Below are positions 1 to 53,277 of a DNA stretch of 55,377 bases, piece after piece; positions within the stretch are counted from its first letter, which is position 1, and the number at the start of each line of letters is the position of its first letter. Where the stretch lies: NCBI GenBank assembly GCA_003137095.1, contig PLET01000043.1:50454-105830 (forward strand), read 5' to 3'. The notes under the pieces are model-generated. The model was not told the DNA's origin. It saw nothing but the letters and a program-made list of their open reading frames with translations, and made no database searches. Made by a program: the position numbers and the translations under genes. The stretch is from Gammaproteobacteria bacterium. GTDB lineage: Bacteria > Pseudomonadota > Gammaproteobacteria > Steroidobacterales > Steroidobacteraceae.

Positions 1-2612
<2,612 letters not shown>

Positions 2613-2616
<4 letters not shown>

Positions 2617-30914: not shown

Positions 30915-31759
30915 CGCCAGGCCACCACAGTCTGGCGCTGGGATCCGAGCTTGGAGATGCCGAGTTCCATCACATCGCCCGGCTTGAGGAATATCGGCGC
31001 CGGCTTCTTGCCCATGCCCACTCCCGGCGGTGTGCCGGTGGTGATCAGGTCGCCGGGTTCGAGCGTCATGAAGCGGCTGATGTAGCTCACCAGCGTGCGC
31101 ACCGGAAAGATCATGGTCTTGGTGCTGCCGCTTTGCATGCGCTTGCCGTTGAGGTCGAGCCACATGTCGAGGCGCTGCGGATCGCCGACCTCATCCGCGG
31201 TGACGAGATACGGCCCCACGGGGCCGAAGGTGTCGCAGCCCTTGCCCTTGTCCCAGGTGCCGCCGCGCTCCAGCTGGTAGGCACGCTCCGACACGTCGTT
31301 GACCACGCAATACCCGGCCACGTGGTCGAGCGCCTGATCCTCCGGTACGTAGCGCGCGGTGCGGCCGATGACCACCCCCAACTCGACCTCCCAATCGCTC
31401 TTGACCGAATCCTTGGGCAGCATGACCTCATCGTTCGGACCGACGATGCAGCTGATCGCCTTGCTGAAAATGATCGGCTCGGCCGGCACCGGCATGCCCG
31501 ATTCGGCCGCGTGGTCCGAGAAATTCAAGCCCACGGCGATGAATTTGCCGATGCCGCGATACGGCGTGCCGATGCGCGGGCTGCCCGTGACCGCCGGCAG
31601 CCGGTCGAGGCTCTGCGCAGCGATGGTGCGCAGGGCGGCCGGGGAGAGCGAGTCGGGCGTGAGGTCCTTGGTCACGGACAGCAGCGAGCGGATCCGCCCC
31701 TCGGCGTCGAGCAGCCCGGGCTTCTCCGAGCCCGCCGGTCCATAGCGCAGCAGTTTCAT
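30911..31759 (-). CDS. FAH-family hydrolase, probable 2,4-diketo-3-deoxy-L-fuconate/rhamnonate hydrolase
   Basis: A 282-residue cytoplasmic enzyme of the fumarylacetoacetate hydrolase superfamily. The metal-binding DWEVELGVVIG block, KDSVKSD, GYCVVNDVSERA and ISTGTPPGVGMG-like (here ITTGTPPGVGMG) motifs are all present. The whole-length pattern, including MKLLRYGPAGSEKPGLLD, is that of the clade containing 2,4-diketo-3-deoxy-L-fuconate and -rhamnonate hydrolases, often mis-annotated as ureidoglycolate lyase. That reaction releases pyruvate and L-lactate, which agrees with lldD in the same island. It lies nine bases downstream of the SDR gene on the same strand, forming a two-gene operon. Confidence 0.85.
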   Translation of the reverse strand: MKLLRYGPAGSEKPGLLDAEGRIRSLLSVTKDLTPDSLSPAALRTIAAQSLDRLPAVTGSPRIGTPYRGIGKFIAVGLNFSDHAAESGMPVPAEPIIFSKAISCIVGPNDEVMLPKDSVKSDWEVELGVVIGRTARYVPEDQALDHVAGYCVVNDVSERAYQLERGGTWDKGKGCDTFGPVGPYLVTADEVGDPQRLDMWLDLNGKRMQSGSTKTMIFPVRTLVSYISRFMTLEPGDLITTGTPPGVGMGKKPAPIFLKPGDVMELGISKLGSQRQTVVAWR

Positions 31760-31768
31760 ACCGACAGT

Positions 31769-32512
31769 CTAATAGGTAGAACGGCCGCCGGATATGTCGA
31801 ACACCGCGCCGGTGGAAAACGAGCACTCGGCGCTCGCCAGCCAGGCGATCAGCGCCGCGTTCTCCTCGACGGTGCCGAAGCGGCCCGCCGGGATCTTCGA
31901 CAGCATGAAATCGATGTGCGCCTTGGACATCTGGTCGAAGATGGCGGTGCGCACGGCGGCGGGCGTCACCACATTGACCGAGATGCCGCTTCTGGCCAGC
32001 TCCTTGCCGAGGGACTTGGTGAGGCAGATCACCGCCGCCTTGGAGGCCGAATAGGCCGCGGCGTTGGGATTGCCGTCCTTGCCCGCCACCGAGGCCAGAT
32101 TGACGATGCGGCCGTATTTCCGAGCCACCATGTGCGGCACCACCGCGCGATTGACGTAGAAGGTGCCGTTGACGTTGACGTCCATCACCTTGCGCCACGC
32201 CTCGGTGGGATAGTCGGCGAGCGGCGCATTCGGCCCCGTGATGCCGGCGCTCACCACCAGCACGTCGATCTGGCCAAACTCCCGCAGGGTCGAGGCGGTG
32301 GCCAGGGCGACGGCCGCCTCGTCGGACTGATCCATCACGACGCGGTGGGCGAGTACCCCTGCGGCGGCCTCGAGGGCGCTCGCAGAAATGTCCCAGCCGC
32401 TCACCCGGGCACCCTCGGCGGCGAGGCGCTCGGCGACGGCCAAGCCGATGCCCGAGGCACCGCCGGTGACGACGGCAAATTGACCAGAGAAACGACCGGC
32501 AAACGGAGTCAT
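31769..32512 (-). CDS. SDR family dehydrogenase, probable 2-keto-3-deoxy-sugar-acid 4-dehydrogenase
   Basis: A 247-residue classical short-chain dehydrogenase. It has the cofactor loop VTGGASGIG (15-23), an Asp41 at the end of strand 2 indicating NAD+ rather than NADP+, SAGITG (the NNAG position is replaced by VSAG), and the catalytic Ser141, Tyr154 and Lys158 (AAYSASK). In non-phosphorylative L-fucose and L-rhamnose pathways an SDR oxidises the 2-keto-3-deoxy acid to the 2,4-diketo acid used by the FAH-family hydrolase encoded next door. Start: ATG at 32512; an in-frame GTG lies three codons upstream. AT-rich sequence with AATATATGA (32572-32580) precedes it. Confidence 0.85.
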   Translation of the reverse strand: MTPFAGRFSGQFAVVTGGASGIGLAVAERLAAEGARVSGWDISASALEAAAGVLAHRVVMDQSDEAAVALATASTLREFGQIDVLVVSAGITGPNAPLADYPTEAWRKVMDVNVNGTFYVNRAVVPHMVARKYGRIVNLASVAGKDGNPNAAAYSASKAAVICLTKSLGKELARSGISVNVVTPAAVRTAIFDQMSKAHIDFMLSKIPAGRFGTVEENAALIAWLASAECSFSTGAVFDISGGRSTY

Positions 32513-32553
32513 CGTCCACACCCGAGGCCAGCGACGGCTCTTGAAGTACCTGC

Positions 32554-32632: not shown

Positions 32633-33052
32633 TCACTGCCGATAGCGCGTCGGCAGAGGACCTGCACCGGGGCGCGGCACGAAGAATTCGCTGTAATTGA
32701 CGATTGAACCGTCGCGCAGTTCCAGTAGATCGACGAGTTCGGTGCGCACGGTGACGCCGGTGACCTTCGAATGGATGTCGACGCGCCAATGCGCCACCGC
32801 CTTCGGCCATTCCACCACCAGCGACAGCAGCCGGTAATCGGCCAGGCGGAACACCTTGACCATCATCATCAGCCACGGGCGGAATTGCACGAGGCCCATG
32901 GCGCTGATGGCGATGGGCTTGTCGGCGCTGGCGCCGGCGATCTCGAACACGCCGTCGGCGGCGAACAGCCGGCACATCCCGGAAAGATCGCCGGCGACGC
33001 GCGCACGGTGCAGTTCCTCGACCATGCGCTGCGCCTGCGCCCGCTCGATCAT
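32633..33052 (-). CDS. NTF2-like/SnoaL-fold protein
   Basis: A 139-residue protein with an NTF2-like pattern: an N-terminal helix (AQAQRMVEELHRARVAGDLSGM), CRLFAADGVFEIAG, and a long C-terminal sheet (HWRVDIHSKVTGVTVRTELVDLLELRDGSIVNYSEFF). The family includes SnoaL-type cyclases, ketosteroid isomerases, epoxide hydrolases and non-catalytic ligand binders; activity cannot be assigned. The ATG overlaps the stop of the alpha/beta hydrolase gene (ATGA), so it is the last gene of a four-gene operon that also holds the SerRS-like ligase and acyl-CoA dehydrogenase. The frame continues upstream but only as shadow. Confidence 0.75.
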   Translation of the reverse strand: MIERAQAQRMVEELHRARVAGDLSGMCRLFAADGVFEIAGASADKPIAISAMGLVQFRPWLMMMVKVFRLADYRLLSLVVEWPKAVAHWRVDIHSKVTGVTVRTELVDLLELRDGSIVNYSEFFVPRPGAGPLPTRYRQ

Positions 33053-33993
33053 GCGTCCGGCCGGAACGCGCCGCGCAATTCGCGGCCGATGATCTGGTAG
33101 GCGGTGCCGGCGTAGGGGATCACGGACCCCATTCCGTAGAACAGATGGATCATCCCCGGATGACAGGTGTAGCTCACCGGGGTGCCGGTCGCCGCCAGCC
33201 GGTCGGCATACTCGCGGCCCTCGTCGCGCAGCGGATCGAATTCGGCGGTATGCACCAGCGTGCGCGGCACGCCGGCGAGATCCGGCACCCGCAGCGGCGA
33301 GATCCGCGGATCGGCGGCATCGACGCCGTCCGGCAGGTAGTGCAGCAAATCGTGGGCAAAGGTGTCCTCGTCGACCAGATAGCCGCGCCGGAGCTCGCGC
33401 CGCGACGCGCTGGTGGAGAGATGGTCGAGCAGCGGACACAGCAGCAGCTGCAGCACCGGCGGCGGGCGGCCGCTGCGCGCCAGGCCGTGCACGGTGACCG
33501 CCGCCAGCGTGGCGCCGGCCGAGTCGCCGCCGATGCCGAGGCGCTTCGGGTCGATCCCGTAATCGGCCGCATGGGCCTGGACGTGGATCATCGCCGCCAG
33601 CGCGTCCTCGACCGCCGCCGGGAAACGGTGTTCCGGAGCCAGGCGGTAATCCACCGACAGCACCCGGCAGCCGCCGGCATTGGCAAGCGCGGCTGCGACC
33701 GCGTCGTGACTCGCCGCCGAACCCGACATCAGACCGCCGCCGTGAAAGTAGACCAGACCGGGCAGCAACCCCGGCGCCGCGTCCTTGGGCGTGTACAGTC
33801 GCGCGGACAGATCGCCGGCAGGAGTCGGGATGCGCCGCTCCTCCAGGCCGTCGAGCGGTGGCGTGGGGCCCGAGAATTTCATGAGCTCCAGATGGCCGGC
33901 GCGCCGCTGCGCGGCGCTCGCCGTCAAGATGCTCGGCGGGTTGCCCGCGTTCAGGACGTTCAGAAAGCGCTTGACGCGCGGATCGAGCGGCAT
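33049..33993 (-). CDS. HSL-family alpha/beta hydrolase (acetyl-esterase-like)
   Basis: A 314-residue cytoplasmic esterase of the hormone-sensitive-lipase family. The oxyanion HGGG is at 84-87, nucleophile Ser158 in GDSAG, Asp253 (TAEFDPLRDEG) and His283 (HPGMIH). RLAPEHRFPAAVED is typical. The family hydrolyses short acyl esters. In this operon it may release or transfer a product from the carrier protein, or edit it, but that is inference. It is followed with a 4-base overlap by the NTF2-like gene and preceded by the amino acid:[carrier protein] ligase with a 14-base gap. Start: ATG at 33993, giving a normal N-terminus. Confidence 0.88.
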   Translation of the reverse strand: MPLDPRVKRFLNVLNAGNPPSILTASAAQRRAGHLELMKFSGPTPPLDGLEERRIPTPAGDLSARLYTPKDAAPGLLPGLVYFHGGGLMSGSAASHDAVAAALANAGGCRVLSVDYRLAPEHRFPAAVEDALAAMIHVQAHAADYGIDPKRLGIGGDSAGATLAAVTVHGLARSGRPPPVLQLLLCPLLDHLSTSASRRELRRGYLVDEDTFAHDLLHYLPDGVDAADPRISPLRVPDLAGVPRTLVHTAEFDPLRDEGREYADRLAATGTPVSYTCHPGMIHLFYGMGSVIPYAGTAYQIIGRELRGAFRPDA

Positions 33994-34007
33994 GGGCGGC
34001 CGGCCGG

Positions 34008-34922
34008 TCAGACGCCCAGGGCGCGCCGCGTCGTGGCCGGCCAGCGGGCGGGATCCAGGCCGTGAACCGCGAACAGCGCCACCGCCAGGCGGTCGATGCC
34101 GAAAGCCACGCAACTGGTGTGTGCCAGCACGCCGCCGCCGTCGCGGATGTTCCACACCGTGCCGAAATGCTCGCGGTGATAATTGAAGCTCATGCAGGCG
34201 GTGGGCCGCGCGCCCGGATGGTACGGGATCAGCAGTTCGAATTTGAGCGCCTGTTGGCGCTGGCTCACGGCTTTGACCTGGCCGACGCGGCCGAAGAACG
34301 GATCGTTCGCCACCTCGATGCTGTGCGGCAGCGCGAGGTCCGCCGCGATCAGCGGCGCCTTGGCGAGATACCGTTCGCGAAACTCGACGATTTCCTCGGG
34401 CAGGCCGATGCGCACGAACTCGCGCATGCGGAAGCTCTGCAGGCGATCCAGATGCACCGACGGCTCGCGGCGGAAACAATCGGCTTCGATGTCGAACAGC
34501 CAGCCGCCCGCGGGCAGGACGCCGCGCGCGGCGGCGATCGGGTACAGCGGATAGCAAGCCGCCGGCGTGAGCACAAGCTCGGTAGGGCCGAGCGAGGCGG
34601 TCCAGTCCCCGCCGGTGAGCAGCCGGTCGGCCGACTCGCGGATCGATGCCTCGCTGCCGTGCAGGGCGCACACGCAGCCCAACAGGTTCGGGAAGCTGCC
34701 GAGATAGCCCGACTTCTCCAGCTGTCCGCGGCTCATCACCGGCGGAAAACGCAGGAACTCGGACTCAGGCTCGCGCAGCGAGGTGATGAAATTCTCGAGC
34801 GCCTCGACCACCCGCGTGTACAGCGCGGTGCGCGCATAGACGCCGTCCGCGCCCATCGGCCGAAACAGCTCCGGTTTCAGATCCGCCAGCGGGTCGGCGT
34901 TCACGGGAATCGAGTCAGCCAC
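34008..34922 (-). CDS. Amino acid:[carrier protein] ligase (SerRS-like, lacks tRNA-binding arm)
   Basis: A 304-residue class II aminoacyl-tRNA-synthetase homolog without the N-terminal tRNA-binding domain. It has class II motif 2 (DCFRREPS, ~149-155) and motif 3 (AFGIDRLAVALF). Three predicted zinc ligands are Cys123 (PAACYP), Glu168 (MREF) and Cys271 (TSCVAF). In the Bradyrhizobium enzyme, as I recall, the ligands are Cys131, Glu176 and Cys279, the same spacing shifted by eight residues. Such enzymes adenylate glycine or alanine and transfer it to the phosphopantetheine of a dedicated carrier protein instead of tRNA. A carrier protein is encoded divergently at 36.4 kb. It overlaps the acyl-CoA dehydrogenase gene by 8 bases. 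Confidence 0.9.
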   Translation of the reverse strand: MADSIPVNADPLADLKPELFRPMGADGVYARTALYTRVVEALENFITSLREPESEFLRFPPVMSRGQLEKSGYLGSFPNLLGCVCALHGSEASIRESADRLLTGGDWTASLGPTELVLTPAACYPLYPIAAARGVLPAGGWLFDIEADCFRREPSVHLDRLQSFRMREFVRIGLPEEIVEFRERYLAKAPLIAADLALPHSIEVANDPFFGRVGQVKAVSQRQQALKFELLIPYHPGARPTACMSFNYHREHFGTVWNIRDGGGVLAHTSCVAFGIDRLAVALFAVHGLDPARWPATTRRALGV

Positions 34923-36123
34923 GGATCGAGGTCGGCAGCGGCGCCATCAGCGACGCCGCGGCGAGGTTCGAGAGGATGCGGTCGTTGTTGATCATGAGCG
35001 GCGCCGACAGGATGTCGCGCAGATGCCGCCCGATGCTGAATTCGACGTCGTTGCGATAGCCCGACAAACCGCAGGCCCGCAGGGCGCTCATCACCGTGGC
35101 GAGCGCCAGCTCCGAAACCTGCACCTTGGTGAGGGTGATCAGGGATTGGAACTCGATGGCGGTGACCGCCTTGTCGTCGTTCATGATGTCCTCGTAGCGC
35201 TGCAGGGCGGCGGACAGAACCCCGCGCAGCGTGCGCAGCGAGGAGACCGCCTGGGTGACGTGCGCCGCGCCCGGCGGCATGCTGCCGTTCGACTGGCGCA
35301 TGGCATGGCGCACGAAGGCCTGGGCCTTGGCCGTGGCCGCCGCGGCGATACCCGCCCACACCGCGCCCCAGGTCAGGTGCGCGTACGGCACCATGGTCTG
35401 CGCATGGATCTTTTCGTACGGCTCGACCAGCAACTGGTCCGCCGGGGCGCGCACCTTGAGGGTGAAGCCCTCGCTGTGGGTGCCGCGCATACCGAGCGTG
35501 TCCCAACCCTGCAGGCGCTCCAGGGTGTAATCGGATTTGAGGATCAGCAGCAACACCTGATCGGAGGCGGCCGCATCCTCGGCGCGGCGCGCCGTGGTCA
35601 CGATGCCGTCGGCCTCCATCGCATAGGAGATGACCGTCGCCTTGCGCTCCAGGGTCACCAGATCGCCCTCGCGGCCGATGGCCGCTTCGCTGGCGCGCAC
35701 GTTGCCGCCGGTCTGGCCCTCGGTGGTCGAGGAGGCGAGCAGCAACTGGTCCGCCGCGACCCGGCGCAGGATCTTCTCGATGGCGGCATTGCCGCGGATG
35801 TGGCGCACGATGCACGCCATCTTGATCTGATGCATGGCGTAGATCAGCGCCGTCGAGCCGCAGGTCTGGCCGAGCGTGTAGCAGACATCGACGATCTCCG
35901 CGAGCGATGCGCCCTCGCCGTCGAGCGACTTAGGCACCATGATGCCGAGCAGCTGCTGTCTGCGGATCTCCTCGAAGGCCTCGCTCGGAAAGCGTCCATC
36001 CCGGTCCACCACGGCGGCATGCGCCTTGGCGACCTCGGCGGCGATGCGCGCACGCGCCTTCAGTTCAGCGGGATGAACCTCGATGACGCGCGCCGCGCCC
36101 GCGTTGCTGCGTGGCGCCTCCAT
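34915..36123 (-). CDS. Acyl-CoA dehydrogenase-like flavoprotein, probably acting on carrier-bound substrate
   Basis: A 402-residue FAD enzyme of the acyl-CoA dehydrogenase fold. It has an N-terminal helical domain (FPSEAFEEIRRQQLLGIMVPKSLDGEGASLAEIVDV), a central beta-domain (LASSTTEGQTGGN, GWDTLGMRGTHSEGFTL) and a C-terminal helical domain (ALRACGLSGYRNDVEFSIGRHLRDILSAPLMINNDRI). The usual Glu of the YEGT-type segment is absent (INNDR), so the catalytic base, if any, lies elsewhere. Acyl-CoA-dehydrogenase relatives are known to oxidise prolyl-carrier proteins, so oxidation of the aminoacyl-carrier made by the adjacent ligase is a sensible hypothesis. First gene of the minus-strand operon and divergent from the carrier protein. 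Confidence 0.85.
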   Translation of the reverse strand: MEAPRSNAGAARVIEVHPAELKARARIAAEVAKAHAAVVDRDGRFPSEAFEEIRRQQLLGIMVPKSLDGEGASLAEIVDVCYTLGQTCGSTALIYAMHQIKMACIVRHIRGNAAIEKILRRVAADQLLLASSTTEGQTGGNVRASEAAIGREGDLVTLERKATVISYAMEADGIVTTARRAEDAAASDQVLLLILKSDYTLERLQGWDTLGMRGTHSEGFTLKVRAPADQLLVEPYEKIHAQTMVPYAHLTWGAVWAGIAAAATAKAQAFVRHAMRQSNGSMPPGAAHVTQAVSSLRTLRGVLSAALQRYEDIMNDDKAVTAIEFQSLITLTKVQVSELALATVMSALRACGLSGYRNDVEFSIGRHLRDILSAPLMINNDRILSNLAAASLMAPLPTSIRG

Positions 36124-36365
36124 CTCTAAAGAGCACCAGAAGACAGGAATTGAAGCTGGATCATGTCACTGCATTATGCGGGCAACCTGTTGCACCGGCC
36201 AATACGCGGGTCTCGCTTTTTTCCAGGATATGTTAAATATCACCGCAGCGATATCTGCGCTCCGTCTCATCTTCGTAACGCCTTATGTCGCGCCGCTGCT
36301 TTATTGAAAATTCGCGCCGCGTAAGCAGGTATGATTCGAAGAGAATGGATCGTGGGAGATGATGA
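36124..36365. other. Divergent promoter region between acyl-CoA dehydrogenase and carrier-protein genes
   Basis: This 242-base region is AT-rich by local standards and should drive both the ligase operon and the carrier-protein gene. It contains GATATGTTAAATATCACC near 36223-36240, a GATATC palindrome, and a possible -10 TATGAT at 36330-36335 for the carrier gene, but its nearest -35-like TTGAAA is 20 bases away, which is too far for confidence. No gene is seen in it. Confidence 0.45.
36354..36358 (+). promoter_or_regulatory. Ribosome-binding site supporting a TTG start for the carrier protein
   Basis: GGGAG lies seven bases before TTG 36366. Nearby ATG codons (36362, 36373, 36379) are out of frame, so TTG is the best start. 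Confidence 0.6.
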
Positions 36366-36671
36366 TTGTTGAATGCGAATGACGCCCGCGGCAATGTCGC
36401 GGCGCCCGAAAATGTGGGATTCGAGGACGTACGCAACCGCCTGATCGGGCTGGTCCGGCACATCCTCGGCGAGGAAGGCGCGATTGCCGGTCCGTTTCCG
36501 ACCGACCGTCAATTGAGCGACCTCGGCATCAGCTCCCTGAAGATGCTGAATCTCATGCTCGCGGTGGAGGTCGAATTCGACATCGCCATCCCGCAGACCG
36601 AGATCACGCCGGAGAATTTCCACAGCGTCGAATCCATGCAGACCCTGACCGAGCGGCTGCTGCGCCGCTGA
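36366..36671 (+). CDS. Acyl/aminoacyl carrier protein 1
   Basis: A 101-residue protein with an acidic N-terminal extension (1-20) and a four-helix carrier domain. Phosphopantetheine attachment is predicted at Ser57 in DLGISSLKML, with flanking pattern LSDLGxSSL typical of carrier domains. The VEVEFDIAIPQTEITPENFHSVESMQTL tail is the helix III-IV region with the usual hydrophobic spacing. It is encoded divergently from the SerRS-like ligase and acyl-CoA dehydrogenase and is their likely partner: the ligase would load an amino acid on it. A TTG start is inferred from the upstream GGGAG. A 16-base tandem repeat overlaps its stop codon. Confidence 0.88.
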   Translation: MLNANDARGNVAAPENVGFEDVRNRLIGLVRHILGEEGAIAGPFPTDRQLSDLGISSLKMLNLMLAVEVEFDIAIPQTEITPENFHSVESMQTLTERLLRR

Positions 36672-36714
36672 TCCGCCCCGCCGCTGATCCGCGCGGCCGC
36701 TGATCCGCGCGGCC
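36667..36714 (+). repeat. Three tandem copies of a 16-bp unit after the carrier-protein gene
   Basis: GCTGATCCGCCCCGCC, then GCTGATCCGCGCGGCC twice, lie head to tail, followed by a decayed fourth unit. The first copy contains the carrier gene's TGA stop. GCGCGGCCGC segments can pair locally, so the tract may act as a transcript end between these convergent genes. Confidence 0.8.
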
Positions 36715-36739
36715 GCTGTGCCGGAACTCCGTGCGGCCG

Positions 36740-38188
36740 CTAGCGCCGCGTGAGCTCCTCCACCAGTTCGTCGATGTCCGCTTCGCTGGTCTCGCCGTGG
36801 GTTGCGCAGATGCGCACCACGTCGCGTCCCTCGAAGCTGGTCGCCGCCACCCACGCGCGTCCCGAGGCCACCACGCGCCGCACCAGCGCCCGCACCTCGC
36901 CGTGATCCGCGGGCGGCACGGCGTCGAGCACCGCGAGCTGCGAGTCGTTGGCGATTTCCCAGCCGCGCGCCGTCAATTTCTCCCGCACGCGCTCGATCAC
37001 CCGCACGCTGCGCTCGACGTGCGCGCTCAAGCCCCGCCAGCCGGCGGCCGCCAGCGCGAGAAACAGCCGCAGGCCGATGAAGCGTCTCGACCATTGCACG
37101 GAGTTCAGATACGGATCCGTGGCGGCGAGGCTCGAGGGCATGAAGCTGGTGGAGGCGTGGAACACCTCGGACAGCAGCGCACCGTGGCCGGTGATGAACA
37201 TGGCGCAGCCCATGGTGGTGGCCAGCCACTTGTGGGCGTCGATGGTGATCGAGTCGGCCAGCTCGATGCCCGCGAGCAGCGGCCGCAGCCGCTCCGAGGC
37301 GAGCGCGCCACCGCCCCAGGCCGCATCCACGTGGTACCACAGCTTCGCGGCGCGCGCGATCCCGGCACAGTCCTCGAGCGGATCGATCATGCCGCCGCCG
37401 GTGGTGCCCGCGGTGGCGACCACCATCACGGGCACCTCGCCGCGGGCGCGGTCCTTGGCGATCGCATCCGCCAGTGCGCGCGGCGCCATCCGGCCGCGGC
37501 CGTCGGTGTCGATCAGCCGCAGCGCGTCGCGCCCCACTCCCGCCTGATGCGCGATCTTCAGCCAGGCGATGTGGCATTCACGCGAGGTGTAGAACCGCGG
37601 CGCGCCGGGGAACGCGCGCGCGCCCTCGGCCGCGAAGCGCGGATGCGCCGCGGTCAGCGCGCAGATGAGCGCGGTGTAGTTTGCCTCCGAACCGCCGGTG
37701 GCGAAATGCCCGGTGGCATCGGCTGCGAGGCCCGCGCGGCGCGCCATGGCGCGTATCACGTGGCTCTCGATTTCCACCGGCACGGGTGAGGAGGCGGAGC
37801 TCGCGAGCTGCGGATTGAACAGGCTCGCGATGCGGTCGGCGCACAACGCCGGAAAGGCCGCGCCGGGGTTGAACAGGCCGAAATAGCGCGGATTGCCCAT
37901 CTGCACGATGCCGTGCTGCATCTGCTGCACGGTCCAGTGCAGCAGTGGTTCGAGCGCGCGCGGCGTCGCGAAATCGAATTCCGCGAGCTGCCCGCGGAAG
38001 ACGCGCATGTCCAGGGTGGGCACCACCGGCCCCGACCGGATGAGCAGCAGCGCGGCCGCCAGCTCCCGGCCGAGCCAATCCTCCACTCGCGCCCGCTCCG
38101 CGGCGCCCGGAAATAGCGCCGCCACCGGCGCGGGCAGCACGTCCGTCATCAGCGCGTCCGTCACCGGCGCGGGCTGCACGTCGACCAT
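36740..38188 (-). CDS. Group II PLP-dependent amino acid decarboxylase
   Basis: A 482-residue PLP fold-type I enzyme of the aromatic-L-amino-acid/glutamate decarboxylase group. The cofactor lysine is in TIDAHKWLAT; other marks are FATGGSEANYTAL (phosphate-binding loop), ATAGTTGGGMIDPL, YHVDAAWGG and an N-terminal NPRYFGLFNPG block. It presumably makes an amine from an amino acid that may be condensed with a carrier-bound acyl or aminoacyl group. Substrate choice cannot be read from sequence. The ATG overlaps the stop of the upstream Cys/Met-metabolism enzyme by one base (TGATG), so they form an operon. N-terminal residues 1-15 contain a short near-repeat (VQPAPVTDALMTDVLPAPV). Confidence 0.88.
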   Translation of the reverse strand: MVDVQPAPVTDALMTDVLPAPVAALFPGAAERARVEDWLGRELAAALLLIRSGPVVPTLDMRVFRGQLAEFDFATPRALEPLLHWTVQQMQHGIVQMGNPRYFGLFNPGAAFPALCADRIASLFNPQLASSASSPVPVEIESHVIRAMARRAGLAADATGHFATGGSEANYTALICALTAAHPRFAAEGARAFPGAPRFYTSRECHIAWLKIAHQAGVGRDALRLIDTDGRGRMAPRALADAIAKDRARGEVPVMVVATAGTTGGGMIDPLEDCAGIARAAKLWYHVDAAWGGGALASERLRPLLAGIELADSITIDAHKWLATTMGCAMFITGHGALLSEVFHASTSFMPSSLAATDPYLNSVQWSRRFIGLRLFLALAAAGWRGLSAHVERSVRVIERVREKLTARGWEIANDSQLAVLDAVPPADHGEVRALVRRVVASGRAWVAATSFEGRDVVRICATHGETSEADIDELVEELTRR

Positions 38189-39459
38189 CAGGCCGCCGCC
38201 GCCAGTGCCTGCGCGAGATCCGCGAGGATGTCGTCGATGTGTTCGATGCCGACGCTCAGGCGGATGCTGCCGGGCCCCACCCCGGCGGCCAGCTGTTCCG
38301 CTGCCGACATCTGCCGGTGGGTGGTGGAGGCCGGATGACAGGCGAGGGATTTCGCGTCGCCGAGATTGACCAGGCGCTTGAACAGCTTCAGGGCGTCGTA
38401 GAAGCGGATGCCGGCCGTGAGGCCGCCGCGGATCTCGAAGGTCATGAGCGAGCAGGCGCGCCCGCCCAGGTATTTGCGCACCAGCGGCTGATACGGACTG
38501 TCGGCGAAGCCGGCGAAATTCACCGACTCCACCGACCCGTGGGCGCGCAGGAATCCGGCGACCTTCACCGCGTTCTCGACGTGCCGCTCGATGCGCAGCG
38601 CCAGGGTCTCGATGCCCTGCAGGAGCAGGAACGCGTTGAAAGGCGCGAGCACCGCGCCCATGGTGCGCTGGTAGACGCTGCGCAGCCGGCCGATGAAGGC
38701 GGCCTTGCCGTAATGCTCGGTGTACACCATCCCGTGGTACGACAGGTCCGGCTGGGTGAACATCGGAAAGCGCGCGGCGTGCACCTCCCACGGGAAGCCG
38801 CAATCGACGATCGCGCCGCCGAGGGTGGTGCCGTGTCCGCCCATGAACTTGGTGAGCGAGTGCACCACCACGTCCGCGCCGTAATCCACGGGCCGCACCA
38901 GCATCGGCGTGGCGACGGTGTTGTCGACGATCAACGGCACGCCGTGGCGGTGCGCCACCGTGGCCAGGCCCTCCAGATCGCAGACGTTGCCGGCCGGATT
39001 GCCCACCGTCTCGCAGAACAACGCGCGGGTGTCCTCGTCGATCAGCGCTTCGAGGTCGGCGGCGCGGTCGGACCTGGCGAAGTGCACCTTCACGCCATGG
39101 CGCGGCAGGATGTGCGCGAACAAGGTGTGGGTGGTGCCGTAGAGCTGCGGCACGGACACGATGTTGCGCCCCGCCTCGGCGACGTTCTGCGCCGCGTAGT
39201 ACAGCGCCGTCTGGCCCGAGGCCACGCACAGCGCCTCGAGGCCGCCCTCGAGCTGCGCCACCCGATCCTCGAGGATGGCGACGGTGGGATTCTGGATGCG
39301 CGTGTAGCGGTAGCCCTCCACCTCGAGATTGAACAGCGCCGCGCCATGTGCGGCGCTGTCGAAGGCATATGCAGCCGTCTGGTAGATGGGCACCGCCACC
39401 GCCTTGGTCGCCGGGTCGCAGTCGAAGCCGCCGTGGATCGCTATGGTTTCGAGTTTCAT
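38188..39459 (-). CDS. Cys/Met-metabolism PLP enzyme, O-acetylhomoserine sulfhydrylase-like
   Basis: A 423-residue PLP enzyme of the MetY/MetC/MetB superfamily. Visible are SGQTALYYAAQN, YRYTRIQNPT (active-site Tyr/Arg of a partner subunit), VDNTVATPML and the cofactor lysine HSLTKFMGGHG. Length and the NFEEG-like insert (FPMFTQPDLSYHGMVYTEHYGKAAF) point to the O-acetylhomoserine aminocarboxypropyltransferase (MetY) group, which adds sulfide or thiols to O-acetylhomoserine. Here, away from other methionine genes and coupled to a decarboxylase, it may make a special sulfur- or gamma-substituted amino acid for the cluster. Divergent from the FATP-like ligase with only 31 bases between starts. 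Confidence 0.88.
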   Translation of the reverse strand: MKLETIAIHGGFDCDPATKAVAVPIYQTAAYAFDSAAHGAALFNLEVEGYRYTRIQNPTVAILEDRVAQLEGGLEALCVASGQTALYYAAQNVAEAGRNIVSVPQLYGTTHTLFAHILPRHGVKVHFARSDRAADLEALIDEDTRALFCETVGNPAGNVCDLEGLATVAHRHGVPLIVDNTVATPMLVRPVDYGADVVVHSLTKFMGGHGTTLGGAIVDCGFPWEVHAARFPMFTQPDLSYHGMVYTEHYGKAAFIGRLRSVYQRTMGAVLAPFNAFLLLQGIETLALRIERHVENAVKVAGFLRAHGSVESVNFAGFADSPYQPLVRKYLGGRACSLMTFEIRGGLTAGIRFYDALKLFKRLVNLGDAKSLACHPASTTHRQMSAAEQLAAGVGPGSIRLSVGIEHIDDILADLAQALAAAA

Positions 39460-39490
39460 GTCCGGTTCATCGGGTAGAATTTCAGCTTAA

Positions 39491-41275
39491 GTGTACCCCG
39501 CCAATCCCAAATTCGCGCGCGATGCGTGGCTGCGAGCGCTCGCCCGCACGAAGTCGATCGACGAACTTGGCATAACGTTGCCCATGCTGGTCGACCGCTG
39601 GGCGGCGCTGCGCACCGATTCTCCCGCGCTCATCGCCGACGGCGAGTCGCTCACCTATGCGGAGCTCGCGGGCCGCTGCAATCAATATGCGCGCTGGGGG
39701 CTGGCACAGGGCCTGAAGGCCGGCGATGTGGTCTCGCTGGTCATGCCGAATTGCGCGGACTATCTGGCCGTATGGCTCGGGCTCACGCGCATCGGCGTGA
39801 CGGTGGCGCTCGCCAACACCCATCTGACGGGAGATCTGCTCGCGCACGCGGTGTGCAGCGTCGAACCGCGGCTGGTGATCGCCGCCGCCGCGCTCGCGCC
39901 GGCGCTCGGTGCGGCGCGCGCGCGACTGGCGCCCGGCCGGGTGCGGGTGCGCGGTGCGAGCGGCCTCGACCTCGCGCCCATCGACGCGGAGCTCGCGCAA
40001 GCCGGCAGCGCGCCCCTGCGCGAATCCGAGTGTGCGGCGCCATCGCTCGATGCGACCGCACTTTACATATACACCTCCGGCACCACCGGCCTGCCGAAGG
40101 CCGCGCGCGTCAGCCATTACCGCGTCATGCAATGGAGCCACTGGTTCGCCGGGCTGACGGATACCGTGCCCGCCGACCGCATGTACGACTGCCTGCCGCT
40201 CTATCACAGCGTCGGCGGCGTGGTCGCCACCGGCGCGACGCTGGTGGGCGGCGGCGCGGTGGTGATTCGCGCGCGCTTTTCCGCCTCGGACTTCTGGCGC
40301 GACGTCACCGCCGAGCGCTGCACGCTGTTCCAATACATCGGCGAGCTGTGCCGCTATCTGGTCAACGCCCCGCAGCGCGAGGAGGAGACCCGCCACGCGC
40401 TGCGCCTCGCCTGCGGCAACGGCCTGCGGCCCGAGGTGTGGGAAGCCTTCCGTACGCGCTTTCGCATACCGCACATCCTCGAGTACTACGCGGCCACCGA
40501 GGCGAATTTTTCGCTGTACAACTGCGAAGGCGAACCCGGCGCCATCGGCCGCATTCCGCCGTTTCTCGCCCACCGCCTGCCGGTGGCGCTGCTGCGCTTC
40601 GATGTGGCCCGTGGCGAGCCGCTGCGCAATGCCGCCGGGCGCTGCGAGCGCTGCGCGACGGATGAGGTGGGCGAGGCGGTGGGCCGGCTGCCGCAGGCCG
40701 GCCGCGGCGGTCGCTTCGAGGGCTACGCGGAGCGCGAGGCCTCCGACCGCAAAGTGCTGCGCGATGTGTTCGAACCGGGCGACGCCTGGTACCGCAGCGG
40801 CGATCTGATGCGCCGTGACGCCCGCGGCTTTTATTATTTCGTGGATCGCGTCGGCGAGACCTATCGCTGGAAGGGCGAGAACGTCTCCACCACCGAGGTG
40901 CAGGCCGTGCTGCTGCAGGCCCCGGGGGTGCGCGACGGAGTGGTCTACGGGGTGAGCGTCCCCGGTGCCGACGGCCGCGCCGGCATGGCCGCGCTCATCG
41001 TGGATCCGGACTTCGATCCGGCGGCCTTCGCCGCACATGTCGGCGGGCGCCTGCCCGCCTACGCACGGCCGGTGTTTCTGCGGCTGCTGCCCGCGCTCGC
41101 GGCCACCGGCACCTTCAAGCCCATCAAGCAGGAGCTGCAGGGCGCGGCCTTCGATCCGGCGGTGGTGTGCGATCCCCTCTATGTCGATTTGGCCGGCGCG
41201 CCGGGCGAGCGGCGCTACGTGCCGCTCGATGCGGCACTGTACCGGTCCATCCTCGGCGGAGCGGTGCGGCTGTAG
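39491..41275 (+). CDS. Adenylate-forming acyl-CoA synthetase, FATP/VLACS-like
   Basis: A 594-residue class I adenylate-forming enzyme. It has the P-loop YTSGTTGLPKAARVSH, the EYYAATEANFSLYNCEGEPG segment characteristic of the fatty-acid-transport-protein/very-long-chain group, the hinge GDLMRRDARGFYYFVDRVGETYRWKGENVSTTEV and a terminal GTFKPIKQEL lysine region. It activates a carboxylic acid to its acyl adenylate and thioester (CoA or carrier protein). The GTG start directly follows an in-frame TAA (39488-39490), so translation cannot begin earlier. Divergent from the MetY-like gene. Likely supplies an acyl unit to the carrier-protein cluster; chain length unknown. Confidence 0.9.
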   Translation: MYPANPKFARDAWLRALARTKSIDELGITLPMLVDRWAALRTDSPALIADGESLTYAELAGRCNQYARWGLAQGLKAGDVVSLVMPNCADYLAVWLGLTRIGVTVALANTHLTGDLLAHAVCSVEPRLVIAAAALAPALGAARARLAPGRVRVRGASGLDLAPIDAELAQAGSAPLRESECAAPSLDATALYIYTSGTTGLPKAARVSHYRVMQWSHWFAGLTDTVPADRMYDCLPLYHSVGGVVATGATLVGGGAVVIRARFSASDFWRDVTAERCTLFQYIGELCRYLVNAPQREEETRHALRLACGNGLRPEVWEAFRTRFRIPHILEYYAATEANFSLYNCEGEPGAIGRIPPFLAHRLPVALLRFDVARGEPLRNAAGRCERCATDEVGEAVGRLPQAGRGGRFEGYAEREASDRKVLRDVFEPGDAWYRSGDLMRRDARGFYYFVDRVGETYRWKGENVSTTEVQAVLLQAPGVRDGVVYGVSVPGADGRAGMAALIVDPDFDPAAFAAHVGGRLPAYARPVFLRLLPALAATGTFKPIKQELQGAAFDPAVVCDPLYVDLAGAPGERRYVPLDAALYRSILGGAVRL

Positions 41276-41289
41276 CCGCAGACGCCGCG

Positions 41290-42033
41290 CTACGCGGTGT
41301 TGCCGGCGTCCACGGTGAGCACTGTACCGGTGATGTTGCGCCCGCCATCCCCCAATAGAAACTCCACGCTGCGCGCCACGTCGACGGGCTCGGCCATGCG
41401 CTTCAGGGCGCTGCGCCTGGCGATTCTCTCGCGCTGCCCCGCGCCGAGCTCCCCGGTCATGTCGGTGTCGATGAATCCCGGCGCCACCGCATTGACGGTG
41501 ATGCCGAGCTCGCCGACCTCGCGCGCCAGCGAGCGCGTGAAGCCCACGAGCGAGGCCTTGGTCGCGCTGTACACCGACAGCCCGGCGTAGCCGGTCGCGG
41601 CCACGATCGAAGCGATGTTGACGATGCGCCCGGCCCGCGCCGTGAGCATGGACCGCAGCACGTACTTGGTGAGCACGATGGGCGAGAGCGTGTTCAGACG
41701 GATGATCTTCTCGATGTCCGCGTCGCGCATCACGCCGAGCACACCGGCGGTGCCCAGGCCGGCGTTGTTGACCAGGCCGTACACGGTGCCGAAGTCCGCC
41801 CGCAGCCCCCGCACGAAGGCCGGCATGCCCCCGGTGTCGCTCAGATCGAAGGCGCGAAACTCGATCGCGCCGGCCGCCGGTCCCGCACCGTCGGCCGCCG
41901 CGCGGCTCGCGGCGGCGAGCTCATCGGTGCCGCGGCGCGCCACCGCGATGACGCGATAGCCGGCGGCGGCCAGGTTGACCGCCATCGCCAGTCCCAACCC
42001 GCGGCTGCCGCCGGTCACGACGACGTTACGCAC
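41290..42033 (-). CDS. FabG-like short-chain dehydrogenase/3-oxoacyl-carrier reductase
   Basis: A 247-residue classical SDR with VTGGSRGLGLA (cofactor loop, 6-16), Arg33/Arg34 after strand 2 suggesting NADPH, LVNNAGLG, and catalytic Ser142, Tyr155, Lys159 (VYSATKAS). VNAVAPGFIDTDM is typical of FabG-type 3-oxoacyl-[carrier protein] reductases. It is encoded downstream of, and overlaps by 8 bases, an AMP ligase preceded by a carrier protein, so a carrier-bound keto substrate is likely. It is convergent with the FATP-like ligase gene, with only 14 bases between. Confidence 0.9.
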   Translation of the reverse strand: MRNVVVTGGSRGLGLAMAVNLAAAGYRVIAVARRGTDELAAASRAAADGAGPAAGAIEFRAFDLSDTGGMPAFVRGLRADFGTVYGLVNNAGLGTAGVLGVMRDADIEKIIRLNTLSPIVLTKYVLRSMLTARAGRIVNIASIVAATGYAGLSVYSATKASLVGFTRSLAREVGELGITVNAVAPGFIDTDMTGELGAGQRERIARRSALKRMAEPVDVARSVEFLLGDGGRNITGTVLTVDAGNTA

Positions 42034-43465
42034 CGGGGCGCACCAGCTTGCCGGCCGCCGTCAGTTCCAGGGCCGGCACCAGGCGCAACATCGCCGGCAC
42101 CTTGTGCGCGGGCAGCGCACGCCGGCAGGCGTCGAGCAGCTCGCTCTTCACCGCCTCCGGGTTGCCGGCCGCGCGCGCCGCATCGGCCAGCACCACGTCG
42201 GCCACCACGATGGCGCCGGTGATGGGATTGCGCCGGCCGCGCACCAGCGAAGCGCGCACGCGCGCATCCGCGTTGAGCACCGCCTCGACCTCCTCCGGGA
42301 ACACCTTCAGTCCGCCGACGTTGATGACGCCGCCGCGGCGGCCGCGAAAATAATAGCGGCCGTCCACCATCTCCACCAGATCGCCGGTGTCGACATAGCC
42401 GCCGCCGCCCTCGAGCGGCCTGGCGCCCTCGCCGAGATAGCGCGCGGCATTGCGGCTCGAGCGGATGCGCAGCGTGCCGTCCTCCACCTTCATGTCGATC
42501 CCACCCCGGCCCTCGCCGAGCAGCGAGACCGGAAAGCCGGCGAGCCCATCCTCGACGTCGAAGGCCACCCCCGCCTCGGTGGAGGCGAAGGCATGCGCAA
42601 TGCGCGCACGCGGATAGGCGGCGCGCAGATGATCGAGCAGCGGCTGATCGGCGACCTCGCCCGACAGGCGCACGTACTTGGGATCCATCGCCGCGGCGGC
42701 GCCGCTCATCAGCGCCCGGCGCCAATGCGACGGGGTGCCGGACAGGTGGGTCACGCCCGCCGCGCCGGCGCGCGCCAGGAAATCCGCCGGCGGCTCATCC
42801 GCCGCGGACAAGAGCAGCGCCGAACCGCCGAGCAGCGCGCGCAGATAGATCTGCAGGCCGCCATAGCGGCGGATGTCGTAGAAGGTGCTCCACACGCACC
42901 GCTCGTCCGCCGGCGCGGCGCGCGGCAGCGCGCCGGCCAGGCTGTGCAGCGTGTGCAGCACCAGCTTGGGCGTGCCGGTGGTGCCCGAGGTGAGCAATAT
43001 CCATTCCGTGGCGTGGCTGGCGCGGCGGTTGATGGGCGCGGCCAGCGGCTGCGCGGCGAGCCGGCGCACTTCGAGCGGCACCGCCCCGGGCGCCTCGCCG
43101 GCACCGCACACGATGAGATCCGCCTGCGCCATCGCGGCCACCTCGGCCAGCGCCGTCGCGCTGAGATCCGGCGTGCACAACACCATGCGCCGCGCCACGC
43201 CGTCGAGTTCCACCAGGGCGATGGCGGTGGCCAGCTGCTCGCGGGTGGCGATGAGCACACACCGCCCGCGCAGGCTCTCGAGATCCGTGAACAGCGAACC
43301 GCCGGCGAGCGCCGACAATGTGCAGCTGCCGTGCCGGTCGTAGAGGACGCGGCGCGCCGCGGCGCCGTGGCGCGTCACCGCGTCCCACAGCGTTTCCAGA
43401 ACAGGCGTTTCCAATTCGCGTGGCGGATCAGGCGTGGGAGTGATCGTACAATTTGACGAAATCAC
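42026..43465 (-). CDS. AMP-dependent ligase partnered with a carrier protein
   Basis: A 479-residue adenylate-forming enzyme, compact like carrier-loading ligases. It has the P-loop LLTSGTTGTPKLVLHT, ASTEAG (motif A5), DTGDLVEMVDGRYYFRGRRGGVINVGGLKVFPEEVE (hinge and A8) and catalytic Lys in AAGKLVRP near the C-terminus. The N-terminus is short (about 60 residues fewer than acyl-CoA synthetases). It overlaps the carrier-protein gene by 38 bases if it starts at GTG 43465; later starts in this stretch are possible. The set carrier protein + ligase + FabG-like SDR looks like a self-contained loading and reduction module. Substrate unknown. Confidence 0.87.
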   Translation of the reverse strand: MISSNCTITPTPDPPRELETPVLETLWDAVTRHGAAARRVLYDRHGSCTLSALAGGSLFTDLESLRGRCVLIATREQLATAIALVELDGVARRMVLCTPDLSATALAEVAAMAQADLIVCGAGEAPGAVPLEVRRLAAQPLAAPINRRASHATEWILLTSGTTGTPKLVLHTLHSLAGALPRAAPADERCVWSTFYDIRRYGGLQIYLRALLGGSALLLSAADEPPADFLARAGAAGVTHLSGTPSHWRRALMSGAAAAMDPKYVRLSGEVADQPLLDHLRAAYPRARIAHAFASTEAGVAFDVEDGLAGFPVSLLGEGRGGIDMKVEDGTLRIRSSRNAARYLGEGARPLEGGGGYVDTGDLVEMVDGRYYFRGRRGGVINVGGLKVFPEEVEAVLNADARVRASLVRGRRNPITGAIVVADVVLADAARAAGNPEAVKSELLDACRRALPAHKVPAMLRLVPALELTAAGKLVRPGA

Positions 43466-43673
43466 CGAAGGTCACCGGAAATTCAACCCAGTCTGCCGAA
43501 TTGAAGGGATCGACGCTGAGTTCATCCTCGAGGCTGCTGACCACGATGGCGAAGCTGAGCGAATCGAGTCCGCAGTCGGTGAGCTTCAGGTCGTCGTTGA
43601 GCGGCGCGAGGGTGCGCCCCTGATCGCCTGCAACCTGTTTGAAAACGCTGACTACCGTGTCCCGTATCGACAT
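43428..43673 (-). CDS. Acyl carrier protein 2
   Basis: An 81-residue carrier protein with phosphopantetheine serine Ser38 in CGLDSLSFAIVV, preceded by LNDDLKLTDCGLDSL and followed by the SLEDELSVDPFNSAD helix III region. It is rich in acidic residues and of normal length. AGGAG upstream on the minus strand is 12 bases from the ATG, a little long. It heads the carrier-ligase-FabG operon and lies 66 bases from the divergent FemAB-like pseudogene. It is quite different from carrier protein 1, so each probably has its own loading enzyme: the SerRS-like ligase for CP1 and the AMP ligase for CP2. Confidence 0.9.
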   Translation of the reverse strand: MSIRDTVVSVFKQVAGDQGRTLAPLNDDLKLTDCGLDSLSFAIVVSSLEDELSVDPFNSADWVEFPVTFGDFVKLYDHSHA

Positions 43674-43739: not shown

Positions 43740-44695
43740 ATGTACCAGCAAAATAGTATCAGTGCATCGGGTGCATCCGACGTGCCCGCAACGCCGGGCA
43801 CCGCCGTTGCGGCAGCCCAGCCGGAGTGTCATGTCGAGCTCACGGTCGAGGTCGCGGACACCCTGGCCACGCTCGAGGGCCTGCGGCCCGACTACGAGCG
43901 GCTGCATCGCGCCACCGCCAACACCTCGCCATTCGCCCTGCACGAATGGCACATGGCCTGGTGCTCGCACTTCCCGAATCTCGATCCCAAGGTGCACGAC
44001 GAGCTCGCCATCATGGCTTTGCGCAATCCGGCGGGCGACTGCGTCGCCATCGTGCCGCTGATCGCCAGCCGGCGGCGCTTCGGGCCGTTTCCCATCGTCT
44101 CGCTCGACCTGCTCGGCGGCGATCCGTCATCCACCGAAATCCGCACGCCGCTGGTGCAGGACGGCTACGAGAAACCGGCGGCGCGCGGTGCGCGTGTTGT
44201 TGGCGCAGCGGCGGGATTGGGATTGGATCTATTGGGCCAGCATGGCGGGCCGGGTGGGGGATGCAATCGCGGCGGGCGCGCAGCTGCACGTGCGCGTCGA
44301 GCCCCCGGGATACCTGCTCGATCTCGCCCCCCACCTGGGAGCTGTTCCGCAGAAACCTGAAGCGCAACGTGCGCGAATCCCTGCGGCATTGCTACAACTC
44401 GCTCAGGCGCGAGGGCATCGGCTTCAGCTTCGAGGTCGCCGCAAGCGCCGCCGACGTCGCCCGCGCGCATCGGCTTCGTGGTCGGCGACAGGATGCTCCT
44501 GTATTACTCGGGATTCGATCCGCGCTGCGCGCGCTACGGGGTCATGACGACCGCCATGGCGGAGGCTCTCAAATATGCCATCGCCCGCGGCTCTTATCGC
44601 GCATCGCGCTGCATTTTTATCTCGGTGCGCGTTCCGGCAGGGGACTGCCGTCGCTGCTGTCGCGGTTCTTCAGGGCACGCCGTGTGTGGCGCTGA
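43740..44695 (+). pseudogene. Frameshifted CelD/BcsL-FemAB-like N-acyltransferase pseudogene
   Basis: Pieces of one protein are readable in successive frames. 43740 to ~44180 gives a CelD/FemAB start (ADTLATLEGLRPDYERLHRA, FALHEWHMAW, VAIVPLIASRRRFGPF, SLDLLGGDPSSTEIRTPLV). ~44185 to 44330 continues with RRDWDWIYWASM. ~44335 to 44465 continues with ELFRRNLKRNVRESLRHCYN. ~44470 to 44600 has MLLYYSGFDPRCARYG and AEALKYAIARG, and the last piece ends at 44695. At least four frame changes, plus an apparent deletion between the helical linker and YYSGFDP, break it. CelD/BcsL-type proteins sit in exopolysaccharide loci and transfer acyl or aminoacyl groups. Neighbouring genes are intact, which argues against general sequencing error. 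Confidence 0.75.
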
Positions 44696-44715
44696 AATAG
44701 CGGTCATTCAACATA

Positions 44716-44746
44716 TTGACTCGCGATTTATCGACCTTGTTATAAC
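44716..44746 (+). promoter_or_regulatory. Predicted sigma-70 promoter for the exopolysaccharide operon
   Basis: TTGACT (44716-44721) and TATAAC (44741-44746) with a TG extended -10 (44738-44739); the 19-base spacer is long, but the extended -10 compensates. Transcription would start near 44753, giving a leader of about 80 bases before the glycosyltransferase ATG. Confidence 0.5.
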
Positions 44747-44834
44747 TTCACACTTGCATCGAACGGCGCTCCGCGCGCGGCAACATACTGTAATTGCTTT
44801 GTGCTTTAATTGATTCAACACGAGACGGTCCCAG

Positions 44835-46106: not shown

Positions 46107-46120
46107 ATTCTCCGGCAGTC

Positions 46121-47248: not shown

Positions 47249-47259
47249 GAGCGGCGCCC

Positions 47260-49211: not shown

Positions 49212-49221
49212 GGGGCGGCCC

Positions 49222-53275: not shown

Positions 53276-53277
53276 TC

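Follow-up and report, generated by a model that had tools for sequence, protein, structure and literature searches.

What is made by a gene cluster that has carrier proteins and a relative of the aminoacyl-tRNA synthetases, and no nonribosomal peptide synthetase (NRPS) or polyketide synthase (PKS)? The question is raised by eleven consecutive genes at positions 32633–43673 of a 55,377-nucleotide stretch of contig PLET01000043.1 (the whole stretch is called the window here). It belongs to a 4.74 Mb draft genome of 129 contigs from a gammaproteobacterium of the family Steroidobacteraceae (GCA_003137095.1, referred to as G000). We consider it probable, with moderate confidence, that the genes encode a conserved NRPS/PKS-free pathway on free-standing carriers, in which carrier-bound glycine would be oxidised and joined to a homoserine-derived unit. 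This is the best reading of which genes are present, how they are conserved and co-occur, and what orthology and motifs indicate. As the original prediction had stated, the end product of the ligases resembling seryl-tRNA synthetase (SerRS) is not known, according to the available text of a 2022 review (PMC9437257). Several structures have been solved for a glycine:carrier-protein ligase that has no known biological role; the conserved set of partners gives it a likely pathway, and it poses a concrete question in the culturable genus Bradyrhizobium, where in two genomes the genes sit at three separate loci. If the reading is correct, NRPS/PKS logic would be replaced by free carriers together with a relative of the aminoacyl-tRNA synthetases and an enzyme of homoserine gamma-replacement.

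The ligase and its carrier protein

The predicted SerRS-like glycine:[carrier protein] ligase (34008–34922, minus strand, 304 aa) is a SerRS-like core without the tRNA-binding extension, and scores 421.4 bits against the NF005479 model (amino acid:[acyl-carrier-protein] ligase), exceeding the curated cut-off of 357. Its short length and its passing of this model led us to reject a function as a genuine SerRS. The best solved relative is Bll0957 of Bradyrhizobium (PDB 3mey, E 1.9e-132), with 65.4% identity over 301 residues. Residues C123, E168 and C271 correspond to C131, E176 and C279 of Bll0957, which we take to be the zinc-binding positions of the family, and they are conserved in 18/18 ligases of the alignment (A1, 18 rows, the truncated L042 being left out). 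A273 corresponds to A281 of Bll0957. This position, where Ala and Gly may mark the use of glycine and alanine respectively, is Ala in 13/13 cluster-type ligases and Gly in 5/5 more distant ones, a comparison made within the alignment and without the distant loci L132 and L134.

Carrier protein 2 (CP2; 36366–36671, plus strand, 101 aa) has as its top solved match 4h2s_C, ‘Aminoacyl carrier protein 1’, the partner that was crystallised with Bll0957 (E 1.4e-19). Its carrier serine, Ser57, is present in 88/88 CP2 matches, a count in which some loci are one genome taken twice. By sequence likeness CP2 is likely to be the partner of the ligase, and because the ligase is orthologous to Bll0957 and CP2 best matches the solved partner of Bll0957, glycine is its likely substrate. 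The ligase would then activate glycine and load it onto CP2; by orthology, this is the best-supported step of the proposed pathway. Earlier work on Bll0957 reportedly concerned the structure and loading of one ligase/carrier pair, whereas the window cluster adds eight further genes. A close Bradyrhizobium homologue (L087, 678 bits) has the arrangement CP2, acyl-CoA-dehydrogenase-like (ACAD-like) gene, ligase and GNAT-like gene.

Conservation and dispersal of the gene set

A ligase match is found in 21 of 148 relatives, a set that includes the window's own genome, and 17 of these are above the cut-off. The 18 ligase regions analysed comprise 12 of the cluster type, five with a more distant ligase and one fragment; with the window's own counted, 13/148 genomes have a cluster-type ligase locus. 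Genes for the NTF2-like protein, the esterase (EST), the ligase and the ACAD-like enzyme occur in 12/12 other cluster loci of the same family, and the regions that end early are without the rest. The order NTF2-EST-ligase-ACAD-CP2-decarboxylase-MetY-ACS (ACS, acyl-CoA synthetase) is preserved in six regions, those extending this far in such an arrangement; in the loci keeping it CP2 and the acyl-CoA synthetase are likewise opposite in strand to their neighbours. All 11 families are present in L030 in a different order. The five distant-ligase regions have, of the query set, the ACAD-like gene only. A decarboxylase of at least 63% identity is present in 12/148 genomes, all of them with the ligase, and five other genomes have a homologue of 50–55% identity. 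Conservation in relatives, which the original prediction had expected, therefore stands for the set as a whole, which recurs in these 13 genomes and in the co-occurrence described below, and fails for carrier protein 1 (CP1), which is not conserved. A grouping by chance would not account for this recurrence.

A broader, non-random sample consists of 80 named loci, the best 80 of at least 547 confirmed matches among GTDB contigs. Six of these loci (L051, L052, L053, L064, L074 and L110) lie on contigs equal in length to those of loci among the relatives, and two strains contribute two loci each. The ACAD-like gene is present in 80/80 and CP2 in 76/80. Within the stretch analysed around each ligase, the wider genes are less frequent: MetY in 27, EST in 24, ACS in 22, the AMP-forming ligase (AMP-ligase) in 20, the FabG-like short-chain dehydrogenase/reductase (SDR) in 19, NTF2 in 17, CP1 in 16 and the decarboxylase in 12. 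Several of them occur together in uncultured gamma- and betaproteobacteria, Bradyrhizobium, Rhodopseudomonas, Methylobacterium, Bosea and Caulobacter.

The genes need not be neighbours. In the genomes of L070 (Bradyrhizobium barranii) and L087 (B. diazoefficiens) the set is divided over three loci: that of the ligase, one with SDR, AMP-ligase, CP1 and acyl-CoA synthetase, and one with MetY beside the homoserine acyltransferase gene MetA, the esterase lying several kb away. Five other Bradyrhizobium loci (L068, L100, L101, L107 and L109) have MetY and the esterase inside the ligase locus. Within the window's genus, the AMP-ligase is on a separate contig in G003, G009 and G020. The Bradyrhizobium split and these three genomes rule out the idea of the cluster as one fixed block.

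Clusters of the gamma- and betaproteobacterial type carry the decarboxylase and a SnoaL-like gene; those of the alphaproteobacterial type often carry a tandem GNAT-like protein, a thiamine-diphosphate enzyme, a class IV aminotransferase and a cupin. L030 has both decarboxylase and GNAT. The GNAT-like family (about 290 aa; L112:13476–14354 and relatives, alignment A3) is encoded in 57/80 named loci and has no Pfam match. A tandem-GNAT fold is tentatively assigned from a weak model (predicted local distance difference test, pLDDT, 70), and a PDB profile search with the tandem GNAT gave no match. The protein may release the carrier-bound product in alphaproteobacteria. Among the 148 relatives its profile has matches only in G000 (on another contig), G027 and G073.

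Co-occurrence of the AMP-forming ligase with the glycine-type ligase

The AMP-ligase (42026–43465, minus strand, 479 aa; Pfam AMP-binding and AMP-binding_C) links the wider set to the ligase across genomes. With up to 10 candidates scored per genome, orthologues (E ≤1e-60) are found in 12/148 relatives, that is, in 11/13 with the cluster-type ligase and 1/135 of the others (G004); the two genomes with the ligase and no AMP-ligase match (G001 and G047) are both less than 90% complete. In a phylum sample of 398 genomes, 28 have the ligase (E ≤1e-50), 13 of them at ≥57% identity and 15 at 46–51%. With up to four candidates scored per genome and three further matches at 34–36% left uncounted, an AMP-ligase of ≥49% identity is present in 13/13 genomes with the glycine-type ligase vs 1/385 others, the sole case being G341, where the ligase is 49% identical. 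In 9/13 of these genomes ligase and AMP-ligase are on different contigs or at least ~1 Mb apart, two of the nine being single-contig genomes (G185 and G485). The co-occurrence rests on these counts; shared ancestry makes Fisher values overstate their independence.

Where the set is split, the SDR gene (41290–42033, minus strand, 247 aa, Pfam adh_short 171.6 bits) remains beside the AMP-ligase. CP1 (43428–43673, minus strand, 81 aa, Pfam PP-binding 23.8 bits) adjoins the AMP-ligase in the window, G027, G034 and G087, and its carrier serine, Ser38, is present in 22/22 CP1 matches, again with some genomes taken twice. In five same-genus genomes the AMP-ligase gene has a phosphopantetheinyl transferase gene next to it, identified by Pfam in G009 and G020 and by homology in G003, G004 and G016. 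The AMP-ligase is a probable loader of a carrier protein (CP1 in the window), a role that fits the adjoining phosphopantetheinyl transferase gene. Judged by gene linkage, it would load a second acid on CP1 here, and possibly on a different carrier in genomes without CP1; reduction of the loaded acid would fall to the SDR. At one such locus (L139 of G016, 416–3770) three extra genes lie between those for acyl-CoA synthetase and SDR; by eye they are ATP-grasp-like, FAD oxidoreductase-like and alpha/beta hydrolase-like.

The ACAD-fold flavoenzyme

The flavoenzyme (34915–36123, minus strand, 402 aa, Pfam Acyl-CoA_dh_N) gives an AlphaFold model with a pLDDT of 89. A fold search with this model places KijD3, an enzyme oxidising an amino sugar, at rank 1 and acyl-CoA dehydrogenases at ranks 2–10. 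The template-modelling scores (TM-scores) are 0.79–0.81 for KijD3 (4kcf) and DnmZ, equal to or slightly above the 0.73–0.79 of the listed dehydrogenases. By its model, the flavoenzyme resembles amine N-oxygenases as much as dehydrogenases. Ordinary acyl-CoA dehydrogenases have a catalytic glutamate in an IYEGT-type motif, or at the isovaleryl-type position. In an alignment (A2) of 32 of the 97 loci with the ACAD-like family, Ile (29/32) or Val (3/32) stands where the IYEGT-type glutamate would align, and no Glu is found in the isovaleryl-type region (positions 244–250) of the 32 sequences, which have Ala/Ser-His there. An acidic residue, D/E381, is conserved three positions after the missing glutamate and could be a shifted base.

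If glycine is the substrate, ordinary desaturation is impossible, because glycine has no beta carbon. The flavoenzyme would instead oxidise the glycyl group on CP2, most likely by N-hydroxylation, with imine formation as the alternative. N-oxidation is favoured on two grounds: the analogy with AlnG of the L-alanosine pathway, an ACAD-like enzyme to which N-hydroxylation of a diaminopropane unit is ascribed (available text of PMC7347517), and the monooxygenation predicted in 2010 for relatives of the flavoenzyme (available text of PMC2922099). The L-alanosine pathway, likened here by description only, has the ACAD-like enzyme in common with the cluster; its substrate and other genes differ. A possible variant of the proposed pathway, which we rate as rather unlikely, is that the flavoenzyme makes iminoacetyl-CP2 (dehydroglycine) by hydride transfer and that a carbon or sulfur nucleophile then adds. 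The exclusion of ordinary desaturation, the residues at the usual glutamate positions in 32/32 sequences and the dehydrogenases at ranks 2–10 agree with such a hydride transfer; the top rank and TM-scores of the KijD3 group and the AlnG precedent point to N-hydroxylation.

The MetY-like enzyme and a predicted supply of homoserine esters

The pyridoxal phosphate (PLP)-dependent, MetY-like gamma-replacement enzyme (38188–39459, minus strand, 423 aa) passes the TIGR01326 model (O-acetylhomoserine sulfhydrylase) at 579.9 bits (cut-off 495.1), yet it belongs to a separate clade. In a tree of 50 MetYs, those left after dropping duplicates, rows with stops and rows of fewer than 330 aligned residues, 37 pathway copies form one clade with support 100/100, apart from 13 other MetYs, which come from the window's relatives only. 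The clade takes in the dispersed Bradyrhizobium copies. Nine positions separate the groups (34–37/37 vs 12–13/13), five of them in 37/37; they include 51, 109 and 205, of which 205 adjoins the PLP-lysine motif, and we infer that they may change the nucleophile. A MetY of ≥73% identity is found in nine of the 148 genomes, all of them ligase genomes, and identity elsewhere is at most 64%. Within Bradyrhizobium the pathway MetYs form two subclades, L112–L127 (with the ligase) and L181/L188 (which includes the copies dispersed beside MetA).

A component missed by the original prediction is a MetA-like homoserine O-acyltransferase, which is part of the set in many relatives: its gene is present in 27/80 named loci, and a MetA match in 8/16 genomes tested. 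A MetX-like match of 295–488 bits was obtained in 5/10 genomes tested, all five also with MetA. Contig C24 of the window genome has a MetX-like match, weak at 150 bits, that adjoins a PLP gene of Cys/Met metabolism; the cluster MetY may therefore be dispensable for making methionine. This MetY would use an O-acyl-homoserine, for which the probable source is the MetA-like enzyme in many relatives and perhaps a MetX-like one here. As in its family, it would form a vinylglycine-PLP intermediate, and addition of a nucleophile to C4 would then yield a gamma-substituted 2-aminobutyrate unit.

One could suppose that MetY and MetA are methionine-assimilation genes that lie by chance beside an unrelated ligase/carrier/flavoenzyme operon. 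Both are families of primary metabolism, and in two Bradyrhizobium genomes they lie together, away from ligase and AMP-ligase. We nevertheless hold such a composite neighbourhood to be most improbable, given the distinctness of the pathway clade from the 13 other MetYs, the separate MetX-like/PLP pair of the window genome, and the presence of MetY in 27/80 named ligase loci, from alpha, beta and gamma groups and in varied order.

In specialised metabolism, PLP-dependent gamma-replacement with substrates derived from homoserine is likewise carried out by RtxA, Fub7, CndF and LolC. In RtxA of Bradyrhizobium elkanii, dihydrorhizobitoxine is made by the C-terminal half, which is similar to O-acetylhomoserine sulfhydrylase (available text of PMC3222319). 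With an enzyme of the RtxA-related family, a decarboxylase and many relatives in Bradyrhizobium, the cluster could be read as a rhizobitoxine- or aminoethoxyvinylglycine-like pathway, in which MetY couples an amino alcohol (e.g. ethanolamine from the decarboxylase) to O-acyl-homoserine and an enol-ether inhibitor of PLP enzymes results. This is very unlikely: the cluster MetY is a single domain of 423 aa in a clade of its own, without the aminotransferase fusion of RtxA, no desaturase family (RtxC) is found among the eleven genes in Pfam/NCBIfam scans, and the glycine ligase and AMP-ligase would be without a role.

A specific form of the proposed glycine–homoserine pathway would have N-hydroxyglycyl-CP2, or a fragment of it, as the MetY nucleophile at C4, the AMP-ligase/SDR branch finishing an aminooxy- or N-hydroxyamino-linked glycine–homoserine product. 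In this exact form it is improbable. If true, such a product would be a new class of NRPS-free N–O metabolite shared by Bradyrhizobium and uncultured proteobacteria.

Polysaccharide context and the weight of contrary evidence

A competing context is that of surface sugars. Beyond CP1, the window runs on into an exopolysaccharide-type locus (44835–55342, plus strand) with glycosyltransferase, Wzz-like and O-antigen-ligase genes (Pfam); genes for export and for flippases were recognised there by eye. In G003, G009, G016 and G020 the AMP-ligase has a bacterial sugar transferase gene ~1 kb away (the G016 copy matches PF02397 at 217.8 bits). At the same four loci (L184, L182, L139 and L183, respectively) a DegT-type aminotransferase gene, recognised by eye, is also beside the AMP-ligase.

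Glycine oxidised on its carrier could be passed on to an exopolysaccharide or lipopolysaccharide sugar. A role in surface sugars was proposed by Iyer and co-workers in 2010, who noted the ligase-carrier-oxidoreductase link in loci that also encode a glycosidase and one conserved protein (available text of PMC2922099); the original prediction had overlooked that this trio was noted then. More distant SerRS-like operons, in Azospirillum and Mycetohabitans (L132 and L134), share the grouping of carrier, ACAD-like flavoenzyme and ligase with the window. Their ligases are 40–51% identical, and the ligase gene is followed by one annotated as DUF1839, which together with a glycosidase replaces MetY and AMP-ligase. 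We infer that DUF1839 is the conserved protein of the 2010 loci. The neighbourhood of Agrobacterium Atu2574 is probably also of this DUF1839/glycoside-hydrolase type. Another SerRS-like ligase operon, more distant, lies elsewhere in the window genome itself (L041, contig C36, 5934–15984), with a carrier and an ACAD-like gene, near GH2-like and polysaccharide-export genes by eye, as in the 2010 surface-sugar prediction. The sugar transferase genes of the four same-genus genomes have led us to give surface modification more weight and the glycine–homoserine pathway less. Surface modification nonetheless remains unlikely for the window cluster. Neither DUF1839 nor a glycoside hydrolase is among the eleven genes in Pfam scans. 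When eight polysaccharide proteins were compared with 108 cluster-related loci, 10 had matches (8 when two contigs taken twice count once), several of them weak or distant. The MetY, MetA and AMP-ligase unit would be left unexplained.

Several further observations weigh against the favoured glycine–homoserine pathway, beside the polysaccharide genes adjoining CP1, the nearby sugar transferases, the dehydrogenase ranks and acidic residue of the flavoenzyme, and the candidate numbers and shared ancestry behind the co-occurrence counts. In 39/80 named loci, mostly of Bradyrhizobium, none of nine wider genes is in the stretch analysed, and because of this the link to the pathway would rest, for most Bradyrhizobium, on co-occurrence. 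CP1 (E ≤0.1) was not found in the AMP-ligase loci of seven same-genus genomes (G002, G003, G004, G009, G014, G016 and G020), a further reason for our lowered weighting. G004 has AMP-ligase, SDR and phosphopantetheinyl transferase and no ligase match. The window genome has no MetA match (16 genomes tested), and the curated MetX cut-off of 500 bits is reached in 0/10 genomes tested.

Novelty of the set

No account of the wider gene set was recognised in the literature searched, most subscription journals lying outside the search. The trio is already known; what seems to be new, within that literature, is the larger set that adds homoserine enzymes and the AMP-ligase. Two candidate precedents were set aside: the available main text of the paulomycin paper (PMC4425429) has neither ‘seryl-tRNA’ nor ‘CP ligase’, and the available text of the DPO paper (PMC12930378) gave no useful lead.

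Remaining genes and flanks

All eleven open reading frames (ORFs) of the cluster are intact and consecutive, and Pfam and NCBIfam profile scans, on which the family assignments rest, agree with the families first proposed. Nine are on the minus strand and two, CP2 and the acyl-CoA synthetase, on the plus strand; five neighbouring pairs overlap by 1–38 bases. The absence of ketosynthase and condensation domains is borne out by Pfam in 30 window proteins (the 11 of the cluster and 19 further ORFs). Four genes remain to be placed: the SnoaL_2/NTF2-like protein (32633–33052, minus strand, 139 aa, Pfam SnoaL_2 42.6 bits), the HSL-type alpha/beta hydrolase, i.e. the esterase (33049–33993, minus strand, 314 aa, Pfam Abhydrolase_3 224.8 bits), the group II PLP-dependent decarboxylase (36740–38188, minus strand, 482 aa, Pfam Pyridoxal_deC 196.9 bits when scanned from 38212) and the acyl-CoA synthetase (39491–41275, plus strand, 594 aa, NF006134 699.5 bits, cut-off 625). 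The nearest NCBIfam model of the decarboxylase is L-2,4-diaminobutyrate decarboxylase, with a score far under the cut-off. These four proteins would tailor or release a small amino-acid-derived product.

Two flanking genes were rejected as pathway members: an SDR (31769–32521) has no match beside the cluster in same-family loci, and a FAH-family gene (30911–31759) has none in same-family loci and one match in the 80 named loci. On the other side, a GNAT-like gene recognised by eye (43740–44813, plus strand) is divergent to CP1 and frame-broken in this assembly; its first piece has no Pfam match. Further out, 29523–30914 (plus strand) encodes an Enolase-superfamily protein (MR_MLE_C) with, by eye, a twin-arginine-like signal at its N-terminus.

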